Positions 30,895 through 32,775 of a stretch of DNA of 64,000 bases are shown piece after piece. The position numbers and the translations under genes are program-made. The notes beneath the pieces were generated by a model that worked only from the letters and a program-made list of their open reading frames with translations, searched no databases and had not been told where the DNA came from. The stretch's first letter is position 1. Each line of letters begins with the position of its first letter. This DNA comes from Fictibacillus macauensis ZFHKF-1 (lineage in GTDB: Bacteria > Bacillota > Bacilli > Bacillales > Fictibacillaceae), in NCBI RefSeq assembly GCF_000269865.1, contig NZ_AKKV01000030.1:124001-188000 (forward strand). The letters run 5' to 3'.

Positions 30895-31010
30895 TTATTT
30901 CTAAAAAGTCTAATAGCCTAGGTTGAGATAGGCATGGAAACTGATTAAAGGATTCTCATCATGTATGTGGAATTGTTTCTAAGAGAATGCACGGAATAAG
31001 GAGGCTTTTT

Positions 31011-31481
31011 ATGATTGCAATTCAAGATCTTTATCCTGAAGATTATTCATGGTGTTATGGCTGTGGTCGTCTAAATACGCACGGTCATCAATTCAAGACG
31101 TATTGGCAAAATGAGCATACGGAAACAATTTATACGCCGAAAGAAGCTGAGATGGCGGTACCAGGATTTGTTTATGGTGGGTTAATCGCTTCTCTAATTG
31201 ATTGTCATGGAACAGGATCGGCCGCGCTGGCTTTGCATCGCAAAAACGGTCATGAACCAGGAGATGGCGCCGAGCCTCCTCGCTTTGTCACAGCTAATTT
31301 ACATGTTGATTTTATGAAACCAACGCCTCACGGGATCCCGTTACGCGCCGTTGGTACGATCGAAGAAGTGCATCCAAAAAAGTGGATTGTGCATACGGAA
31401 GTATTTGCGAATGAATTACTTTGTGCGAAAGGAACCGTTACAGCTGCCGTTATGCCTGCTAGTTTCCTTCAAAAGCAATAA
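31011..31481 (+). CDS. Hotdog-fold thioesterase (PaaI-like)
   Basis: 156 residues from ATG 31011 with SD AAGGAGG five bases upstream; the in-frame ATG at 30987 lacks one. PaaI-type features: Cys-x2-Cys near the start (SWCYGCGRLN), PGFVYGGLIASLIDCHGTGSAALAL (hotdog helix with Asp) and TANLHVDFMKPTP. Likely hydrolyses an acyl- or aryl-CoA. Its stop is immediately followed by repeat copy B. Confidence 0.82.
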   Translation: MIAIQDLYPEDYSWCYGCGRLNTHGHQFKTYWQNEHTETIYTPKEAEMAVPGFVYGGLIASLIDCHGTGSAALALHRKNGHEPGDGAEPPRFVTANLHVDFMKPTPHGIPLRAVGTIEEVHPKKWIVHTEVFANELLCAKGTVTAAVMPASFLQKQ

Positions 31482-32046
31482 GGAAAAGGACTTGGGGGAC
31501 AAGACTTCCTCTGTTTTGTGATGCATACGGTGGCTCTTGCGCGCGAATCGAACTTACCTGCGCGCGAATCAACCTTGTCTGCGCGCGAACCGGGGGCTCT
31601 TGTGCCCTTCACTCTTTTGATGATTATTGAAGAGATTGCACGCGATTTCTTCTCATTTTTGAGCACATTTACGAGATTAGCTCTTAATTTGCTCTTGTTT
31701 TCATCCCTTGCATACGTTGTTAGAGGTGATTTGTCTAGTTTGTGCGTGATTCGGGGCTTCTGCGCGCGAATCAACCTTGTCTGCGCGCGAACTCGGGGCT
31801 TCTGCGCGCGAATCAACCTTGCCTGCGCGCGAACCAGGGGCTCCTGCGCGCGAACTAGGGCTTCTGCTCCCTTCACTGTATTTGACGATTATCGAAGAGA
31901 TTGCCCTCTTCTTGCCGGCTGCTTACGTACACAAGACAATCTAAAAATAAACGAATGAGCGACACAAAAAAATGGCTTGATCACCGACACCGATGATCAA
32001 GCCATTTTTATTGAGTTAGGGATGTTTATGTCCCTGCCTCTTTTCT
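31482..32046 (-). repeat. Non-coding repeat element, copy B (expanded form)
   Basis: 565 bp between the thioesterase stop and yxcD. On the minus strand it has the same order of blocks as copy A: AGGCAGGGACATAAACATCCCTAACTC (32038-32012 region), a 16-bp hairpin AAAAATGGCTTGATCA/TGATCAAGCCATTTTT (31968-31983 and 31994-32009), TTTTTAGATTGTCTTG, then CAAAACAGAGGAA and a GTCCC...AAGTCCTTTTCC end. Between hairpin and far end it carries a 21-bp-period array absent from copy A. It is orientated opposite to copy A and sits about 5.7 kb away. No credible gene. Confidence 0.82.
31539..31852. repeat. 21-bp-period GCGCGCGAA array in two blocks
   Basis: GCGCGCGAA occurs at 31539, 31560, 31581 and again at 31760, 31781, 31802, 31823, 31844: exactly 21 bp apart within each block. 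Units alternate between a TCAACCTTGTCT-type and a TCGGGGCTTCT-type second half, giving a 42-bp higher-order unit. The blocks are about 170 bp apart. GC content is far above the surroundings. Confidence 0.9.
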
Positions 32047-32047
32047 G

Positions 32048-32359
32048 TTACATTCTACTGCTATGTCTTTGCGTAACGTCTACGACAATACCAGCCTCAT
32101 CATCTAGCAATAGTGACAATCCTGCTGACATTGGATCAATATCGGTTTCTGTGCCGAGGTAAAAACGCAGTGCTTCAATTAAATTTGCTTCAATTAACAC
32201 CTGTTTGCGACCCATCGTATGCACTTCAGCTGAAAATCCATAATCATCGTCATACATTAACTCTACTTCGACATCTTGTGGTGCTAAGGATTTTTTTTGA
32301 GCAATATGCAAACATACCGCGTTAATCAAATCCTGTTCGTACAGTCTTATCGTCTCCAT
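32048..32359 (-). CDS. yxcD: YxcD-like protein (DUF2653)
   Basis: 103 residues, soluble, acidic. METIRLYEQDLINAVCLHIAQKKSLAPQDVEVELMYDDDYGFSAEV and the C-terminal LIEALRFYLGTETDIDPMSAGLSLLLDDEAGI match the YxcD/DUF2653 family as I recall it. Function is not known. It overlaps the preceding gene by 13 bases and is expressed from the sigma-W promoter upstream of that gene. The repeat copy B starts two bases beyond its stop. Confidence 0.75.
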   Translation of the reverse strand: METIRLYEQDLINAVCLHIAQKKSLAPQDVEVELMYDDDYGFSAEVHTMGRKQVLIEANLIEALRFYLGTETDIDPMSAGLSLLLDDEAGIVVDVTQRHSSRM

Positions 32360-32775
32360 TGATCATCGGTCCTTCTACGGTTTTTAAACATAGAAACGAG
32401 GCGCATAATTAAGGAAATAATGACAACGATCGCCAGAACATTCACGAGTAAGCCGAGAATGGAGCCAAGAGGTCCTAAGCTACTTAATAAACCTCCGAAT
32501 AAAAAGCCGGCAACCCCACCTAGAAGTAAGCCTCTAAAGAAACCGCCTCGTTTTGATTTCGTATTACTTCGTTTCGAAAAGAAGCCTTTGTTTGATTTTT
32601 GCTGTTGCTTAAATTGCGATGGTCCATTATTGCTACCACCATTCTTAAAGCCTTTAACACCCGAACGATATCCTTTTGCACTTGCAACATGGTTCGTATC
32701 ATGAAAAACGATACTCGTAACCGGTCCAAGTAAAAACGTAAATACAATTGACGCTGCAATAATTTTCTTTAACAT
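32347..32775 (-). CDS. Secreted or membrane glycine-rich protein under sigma-W control
   Basis: 142 residues. A signal peptide or anchor (KKIIAASIVFTFLLGPVTSIVF), a basic, Gly/Ser/Lys/Gln-rich middle (residues ~35-80), then a hydrophobic Gly-rich stretch FRGLLLGGVAGFLFGGLLSSLGPLGSILGLLVNVLAIVVIISLIMRL and a basic end. It resembles small Tim44-like predicted membrane proteins of Bacillus. First gene of a two-gene operon with yxcD. The sigma-W promoter suggests a role in envelope stress. Confidence 0.7.
   Translation of the reverse strand: MLKKIIAASIVFTFLLGPVTSIVFHDTNHVASAKGYRSGVKGFKNGGSNNGPSQFKQQQKSNKGFFSKRSNTKSKRGGFFRGLLLGGVAGFLFGGLLSSLGPLGSILGLLVNVLAIVVIISLIMRLVSMFKNRRRTDDQWRR

Follow-up and report, generated by a model that had tools for sequence, protein, structure and literature searches.

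The systems closest to the locus considered here are the repeats BOX, SPRITE and STAR and the insertion sequence IS1272, which belongs to the IS1182 family. The BOX element of Streptococcus pneumoniae has the composition boxA-boxB(n)-boxC and a length of 67-637 bp, and SPRITE of the same species consists of a simple stem and a U-rich tract (PMC3049150, in the parts dealing with these repeats). STAR motifs number 62-90 in S. aureus and share the 14-bp core T(G/A/T)TGTTG(G/T)GGCCC(C/A), with copies at least 40 bp apart (PMC3532100, in the parts dealing with STAR). The transposition of IS1272 is described as replacing stem-loops in the target (PMC5678879, in the parts dealing with transposition).

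The window analysed here is a stretch of 64,000 nucleotides from Fictibacillus macauensis ZFHKF-1 (contig NZ_AKKV01000030.1, positions 124,001 to 188,000 of the forward strand). It belongs to a genome of 3.74 Mb in 55 contigs, of which 729 kb of sequence, the window included, was examined; gene positions are mechanical ORF calls, made independently of any annotation. The first-pass annotation of the window had reported eight GCGCGCGAA cores, 21 bp apart and grouped in blocks of three and five, and this is borne out by exact matches on the + strand.

31539, 31560, 31581, + strand: starts of the GCGCGCGAA cores of the first block, exact matches
31762, 31783, 31804, 31825, 31846, + strand: starts of the GCGCGCGAA cores of the second block, exact matches

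The spacing is exactly 21 bp within each block and 181 bp from block to block. Dinucleotide shuffles of the window contained 0.45 GCGCGCGAA on average and 3 at the most, with eight or more in none of 100, and Tandem Repeats Finder recovered the same arrays with periods of 21 and 42. A diverged copy of one and the same stretch follows each of the two blocks and therefore the repeat unit is larger than the array. The feature, originally placed at 31539-31852, extends in both directions to about 31484-32044 and takes in terminal inverted repeats, a spacer and a terminator. It lies between two convergent genes, of which we take the upstream one to be thioesterase-like and the downstream one to be 'YxcD-like'. 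The parts of the window copy are the following.

30987-31481, + strand: upstream gene, an ORF of 164 aa, convergent neighbour and ortholog anchor
31484-31502, + strand: left terminal inverted repeat AAAAGGACTTGGGGGACAA, 2 nt past the stop codon of the upstream gene, compared with the heads of the family
31484-31537, + strand: head module, made of the terminal inverted repeat and the CTTCCTCTGTTTTGTG... motif, common to dispersed copies by copy alignment
31538-31590, + strand: first array block, three TGCGCGCGAA cores at 21 bp
31600-31755, + strand: AT-rich spacer module, recurring in other copies and here lying between both array blocks
31761-31854, + strand: second array block, five TGCGCGCGAA cores at 21 bp
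31855-32044, + strand: tail module, with at least 40 forward tail matches in the genome (40 of 83 candidates scored)
31968-32009, no strand assigned: bidirectional intrinsic-terminator hairpin within the tail, with 19-nt arms that are 95% complementary
32026-32044, - strand: right terminal inverted repeat, AAAAGAGGCAGGGACATAA on this strand, one base from the AAAGAGGCTGGGACATAA of the family
32048-32359, - strand: downstream convergent gene, 103 aa, ortholog anchor

The tail hairpin is the only strong RNA structure in the window copy and the aligned tails. The stretch containing it (31960-32056) folds with z values of -6.76 and -6.84 relative to shuffled sequence, and its 15 consensus pairs are each retained by 30-32 of the 32 tails aligned. 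The array of the window gives z values of -1.33 and +0.53, that is, no signal on either strand, and the best Rfam match within 30900-32500 reached 15.4 bits (E 2.6), below the gathering score of 55. These results bear on the proposal that the array functions at the RNA level, forming hairpins at the 3' end of the upstream gene's transcript. GCGCGC is self-complementary and, at convergent sites, the array would lie between the stop codon of the upstream gene and the terminator; the proposal is opposed by the array folding no better than shuffled sequence and by 11 of 42 arrays of this genome, where both neighbours are on the opposite strand and hence no upstream gene would transcribe the array in that direction. 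Such an RNA element is considered very unlikely.

The array belongs to a large family within its own genome. A genome-wide count gave 571 copies of TGCGCGCGAA, as against 6 for the reversed control, and with so many arrays the idea of a single recent slippage product in one strain fails. Pairs of cores at exactly 21 bp number 392 in this genome and are absent from the other 33 genomes of the family searched. The strict period persists in the other copies, since 209 of the 236 consecutive core distances of up to 110 bp equal 21, the remaining distances in the sampled arrays being 42 (16 cases), 20 (three), 61 (two) and 19, 27, 40, 41, 62 and 102 (once each). Two unit types had also been said to alternate, which holds only partially in the window (A,A,B in the first block and A,B,A,B,B in the second) and is clear over the sampled part of the genome: in 30 runs with 165 units, the identity of the spacers between cores for lags 1 to 4 is 0.437, 0.779, 0.49 and 0.779, respectively. 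The units of this genome thus alternate as 42-bp dimers. Spacer identity from run to run is 0.467, while the best match of a spacer in another run averages 0.909.

Two further proposals can be assessed from these distances and identities. As 21 bp correspond to seven codons, the array could encode a heptad-repeat protein, and two ORFs, 31469-31876 on the - strand (135 aa) and 31518-31958 on the + strand (146 aa), are indeed open across it. Core distances of 19, 20, 40, 41, 61 and 62, however, break the frame within arrays, the two ORFs run across head, spacer and tail of the element, and the arrays sit between genes. A coding repeat is rejected as highly improbable, and the two ORFs, for all their heptad look (RAQ../ARE..), are likely to be spurious gene calls. 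The succession of 10-bp repeats and 11-bp spacers, with an AT-rich, leader-like module before many arrays, also recalls a CRISPR-like or guide-RNA array. The spacers are recurrent types rather than diverse sequences, as their best matches elsewhere indicate, 31500-31960 had no match to phage and plasmid records at E 1e-5, and the arrays are spread over many contigs instead of one locus, which makes this proposal hardly credible.

Forty-two arrays with at least two exact cores were collected from the 729-kb sample, which is enriched for tail-bearing copies because most of the stretches were fetched through tail matches. The units lie all on one strand in each of the 42, and the C-rich strand carries 32 of the arrays. 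The gene on the downstream side is opposite in strand to the array in 36 of the 40 arrays having such a neighbour; the upstream gene, assessed for 37 arrays, shares the array's strand in 23 and runs opposite to it in 14. Intergenic gaps with an array comprise 18 convergent, 15 tandem and 1 divergent gaps, compared with 29, 190 and 76, respectively, among the gaps without an array (Fisher p = 1e-8 for the excess of convergent and 0.001 for the deficit of divergent gaps).

Aligned neighbourhoods reveal one module order, in which the head comes first and is followed by an AT-rich spacer (about 150 bp), the array and the tail; in variant copies, the window's among them, array units precede the spacer too or the spacer is repeated. 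The copies are bounded by imperfect inverted repeats of about 18 bp, of the type AAAGAGRCTGGGACAYAA, at the start of the head and the end of the tail, and the DNA beyond these ends looks unrelated from copy to copy. At a motif threshold of at least 70%, the 42 arrays include 29 with a head, 31 with a tail and 26 with both, and shuffled neighbourhoods 0 and 0 for head and tail; in the 26 array-bearing copies with both motifs, the distance from head motif to tail motif is 314-1219 bp (median 519). Tails other than that of the window are 77-86% identical to it, among the matches listed. An array of at least two exact cores accompanies 31 of the 40 tail matches listed, and the other nine have 0 or 1 exact core, seven of them retaining the head with a motif-to-motif span of 169-384 bp; the number of exact cores per copy thus runs from 0 to 27. 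Over its first 280,000 bases, taken as one piece, contig C19 contains eight arrays, five with head, spacer or tail parts and three without any. Contigs C2, C7 and C19 end within an array, so that the repeats seem to break the assembly. Two further tandem repeats outside long ORFs were observed at C19:80264-80484 and 212871-213168, with periods of about 107 and 162 bp.

Comparison with sister species suggests that the window copy was inserted. All six sisters have only a terminator hairpin of about 40 bp between the orthologous convergent genes; in the window's genome the gap measures 566 bp and the ancestral hairpin is absent. This empty-site evidence comes from one locus (two genes, six sisters). 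A search for a second empty site in a 400-kb stretch of the sister G020 gave no further clear case, and one protein had a relative in only one of six sisters.

The ends of the element point to a likely source of its mobility. The right end of the family, AAAGAGGCTGGGACATAA in several tails, matches one end of an element in the viral contig L314 at 18 of 18 positions, and the right end of the window copy matches it at 17 of 18. The L314 element is 1.8 kb long, has its other end inverted with 3 mismatches and encodes a 522-aa protein that scores 433 bits with the IS1182 transposase model (cut-off 270); the ends of the element are therefore IS1182-type ends. Exact matches to AAAGAGGCTGGGACATAA occur in three viral contigs, L313, L314 and L315, of which L313 has one such end only. 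The 271-bp segment 4341-4611 of L315 (reverse-complement coordinates) carries an IS1182-type end at each side and encloses no ORF as long as 100 aa. The exact 15-base core of the terminal inverted repeat, GAGGCTGGGACATAA, occurs nine times in the window's genome and in none of the 33 other genomes of the family. IS1182-type elements with a different end, GGGGCTGACTCAAAAG, were observed within the family in G003 (L168) and G031 (L171). A search of the literature for the letters of the terminal inverted repeat yielded, among the matches listed, primers and other organisms only.

The element of the window's genome is too small for a transposase of its own: 522 aa need about 1570 bp, whereas the motif-to-motif distances are 314-1219 bp in array-bearing copies and 169-384 bp in those with 0 or 1 core. 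The IS1182-type transposase domain PF13751 had no match in the 55 contigs of this genome, and the transposase may have been lost since. Despite the missing transposase, which counts against this reading, we consider it probable, at roughly 0.7, that the element is an IS1182-type, non-autonomous mobile element (MITE) and the array its internal minisatellite. A past IS1182 transposase would have moved the element, replacing terminator stem-loops in the manner described for IS1272, and the absence of the hairpin at the window locus fits such a replacement by an element bringing its own hairpin. The element's own terminator would then have kept the gene end functional, and such sites would for this reason have been tolerant of the element. 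The length of the array would have been altered in place, by slippage or unequal exchange. Target-site detail is unreadable because the copies are old.

In the literature searched, which had most subscription papers outside its scope, no published description of the element or of the 21-bp class was found; to that extent the earlier statement that no named element resembles the array stands, and it has to be qualified because BOX and STAR are close in build. BOX, as described in the same parts of PMC3049150, is likewise a composite dispersed element with fixed end modules, IS-like inverted termini and variable tandem internal modules, and the 0-27 exact cores between head and tail modules agree with this construction. 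The likeness is one of build, and the element of F. macauensis differs from BOX in its 21-bp module (42-bp dimer), its GC-rich constrained core, the terminator in its tail and its IS1182-type ends. With STAR, as far as the corresponding parts of PMC3532100 describe it, the element shares a short GC-rich direct-repeat core, an intergenic position, a patchy occurrence among relatives, a core number varying by locus and a function given as unknown. Unlike STAR, its 10-bp core recurs at strict 21-bp steps and lies, in the sampled cases, mostly within a terminator element bounded by terminal inverted repeats, and the 571 motifs exceed the 62-90 given for STAR in PMC3532100 (parts dealing with STAR) six to nine times. 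Identity with STAR was rejected, as TGCGCGCGAA does not agree with the STAR consensus. The likeness to IS1182/IS1272 consists in the identical terminal repeat and in insertion where relatives have a stem-loop (compare PMC5678879, parts dealing with transposition); the element differs in having no transposase inside and in carrying a minisatellite and a terminator, and replacement is inferred from one locus. SPRITE is similar in being a dispersed repeat whose main structure is terminator-like (PMC3049150, same parts), but the terminator is here one module of a larger element. In sum, the element reads to us as a MITE of IS1182 type that harbours a minisatellite; its build is BOX-like and it resembles STAR.

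Whether the core has a job was examined through the divergence of units within arrays. Only middle units flanked on both sides by units with the exact core were used, which avoids units selected by their core. Across 167 such units of the window's genome, constancy of the ten core columns is 97-100%. For 89 lag-2 pairs, mismatch is 0-6.7% in the core columns and 13.5-36% in the spacer columns (means about 1.7% and 22%), so that within the same unit pairs the core diverges about 13 times less than the spacer. G064, a genome of another family, shows the same contrast (147 middle units, 102 pairs), with mismatch of 0-8.8% in TGCGCG and 19-51% in the 12 columns after it; the three columns before TGCGCG have 5-7%. 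The contrast is absent at lag 2 from the TATCCGAA array of G122 (8 units), and the constraint sets from other genomes, with 8-23 units only, are too few to weigh. A 10-bp core that is nearly constant next to an 11-bp spacer that drifts hints at a real job for the core, and such constraint is what a sequence-specific binder would require. Together with the strict period, which recurs in other genomes, it partly supports the suggestion of the first-pass annotation that a protein may bind along one face of the DNA.

These data weigh against the reading of the array as a neutral or parasitic minisatellite, in which slippage multiplies the 21/42-bp units and the core is conserved merely by recent duplication or conversion. 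Tolerated gaps, a patchy distribution, a variable core number and the lack of an RNA-fold signal in the array all accord with that reading; neutral duplication nevertheless predicts equal divergence of core and spacer, in place of the roughly 13-fold difference that is clear in G064 too. Neutral slippage would not by itself set core columns apart from spacer columns like this, but core-biased local conversion could do so. A purely neutral origin is thus possible, though we lean away from it. Another reading is that a putative host protein binds the core along one face of the DNA, at 21-bp steps near terminators, insulating neighbouring genes or shaping the nucleoid, and that the element merely spread the array. 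The constrained core and free spacer in the window's genome and in G064 fit a phased protein-binding array, and the TATCCGAA array of G122 speaks against it. Within the mobile-element reading, a sequence-specific factor binding DNA at two-turn intervals might similarly have kept the core constant, a step proposed with less assurance than the others.

Some arrays are older than the mobile element. The array behind eno in the window's genome (C19:151720) has no head, spacer or tail match, and an array occupies the same place behind the eno terminator in three of six sisters (G022, G023 and G025), with 2-4 units in the same direction and at steps of exactly 21; in the other three the array is absent. 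The cores at eno are TTCGCGCGCA in the window's genome, which uses this core genome-wide, as against, for example, TTGGCGCGTA in G022, G023 and G025, so that the core changed while place and period stayed. Pairs of KGCGCGYA at 21 bp were found in G022 (8), G023 (1), G025 (2) and G017 (3), with 1 match for the reversed control in 34 genomes; the pair in G012 is one palindromic place counted on both strands, and the window's genome also has one palindromic place. Ten of the KGCGCGYA places were inspected, two loci being common to two sisters (L280/L272 and L273/L282) and several lying, by eye, directly behind a terminator. Since the eno array, which lacks the mobile ends in the window's genome, is shared with sisters, the array family predates the species and was picked up later by the mobile element as its carrier; some arrays arose otherwise than by transposition of the element. 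The change of core letters with retention of place and 21-bp step fits protein binding, and the lack of the array in three of six sisters is a patchiness that argues against it.

Searches were extended to the order. Three TGCGCG at 21 bp were found in 20 of the 397 genomes, representing 19 of the 135 genera, the window's genome included, and this recurrence also fits a phased protein-binding array. The reversed control of the search matched in G037 (11), G065 (32), G080 (1), G116 (1) and G240 (2), for which GCGCGT-type cores, as in the sisters, may be one reason. Twenty loci from the 19 other genomes (a second one coming from G071) were 7 convergent, 12 tandem and 0 divergent, and one had a missing neighbour. 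At six of the 20 (in G240, G254, G116, G382, G037 and G122) the array is covered by a short open frame of 83-165 aa; these loci were counted as intergenic, though a real small gene is possible there. The array strand relative to the downstream gene was antisense in 6 and sense in 6 of the 12 tandem loci. A strand fixed relative to genes was accordingly rejected as a general rule, as it holds in the window's genome and is mixed elsewhere, and this difference counts against a protein-binding array. A core pair with at most one mismatch matched in 9 of the 397 genomes. Candidates in G106 (L030), G287, G266 and G198 were rejected, L030 looking by eye like open coding sequence and the others having identical or near-identical matched letters, so that the four look like one coding motif. 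The triple-core pattern had 0 matches in viral contigs; it matched 10 stretches of genome contigs, of which that of Lentibacillus populi (L060) was inspected and the other nine, mostly from metagenome-assembled or GC-rich genomes, were left out.

Surveys of tandem repeats without regard to one core gave a similarly uneven picture. Of the 12 tandem-repeat clusters in 240 kb of G064, 11 repeat at 21 bp or a multiple of it, and their cores are of several dissimilar kinds, again as a protein reading the helical phase would suggest; the 21/42-bp arrays observed in this stretch (C1:440001-680000, L198-L209) have cores such as CTATGCGCC, ACTGATGAATAA, TTCCGCCCAA and GGGCGATGCTC and, going by ORF calls, are intergenic. 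For G122, 140 kb yielded 16 clusters, 9 of them with a period of 20 or 21; the same stretch (C63:20001-160000, L210-L216) also holds clusters of period 51 (three, with a fourth of 30/51 within an ORF) and 193 (two). In the sister G020, 400 kb contain just three repeats of 21 bp outside long ORFs, each with about two copies (41-53 bp). Among 40 other genomes (711 kb in all, 239 bases to 20 kb each), intergenic 20-21-bp arrays were seen only in G063 and G079, a sample that is weak in having missed G037, G065, G070 and G071, all of which matched in the whole-genome TGCGCG search. The 21-bp class beyond the window's genome is real but patchy, and no universal occurrence is claimed for it. The low yield of two in 40 sampled genomes adds to the patchiness that weakens the protein-binding reading, which we hold as tentative and somewhat unlikely.

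A broader proposal would place these observations in an order-wide class of extragenic arrays defined by helical phase (42-bp dimers of 21-bp halves), lying near terminators, with constrained cores that differ in letters from genome to genome, are uniform within each and are read by a co-evolving DNA-binding factor, and picked up by a mobile element at least once. Such a phase-defined class would have its signature in the eno locus, where place and 21-bp step are kept and the core letters have become those used genome-wide. We regard this proposal as doubtful. If it were true, the class would be a recurrent feature of these genomes, on which no paper was found in the literature searched.

For F. 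macauensis, the finding amounts to a BOX/STAR-like repeat whose parts are visible, with IS1182-type ends, a carried terminator that can explain the tolerance of the element at gene ends, and a core under measurable constraint. It offers a handle on the old question of whether dispersed GC-rich bacterial repeats have a function: the core has changed between sister species at a fixed locus, and so a protein that reads the core, if there is any, can be sought.
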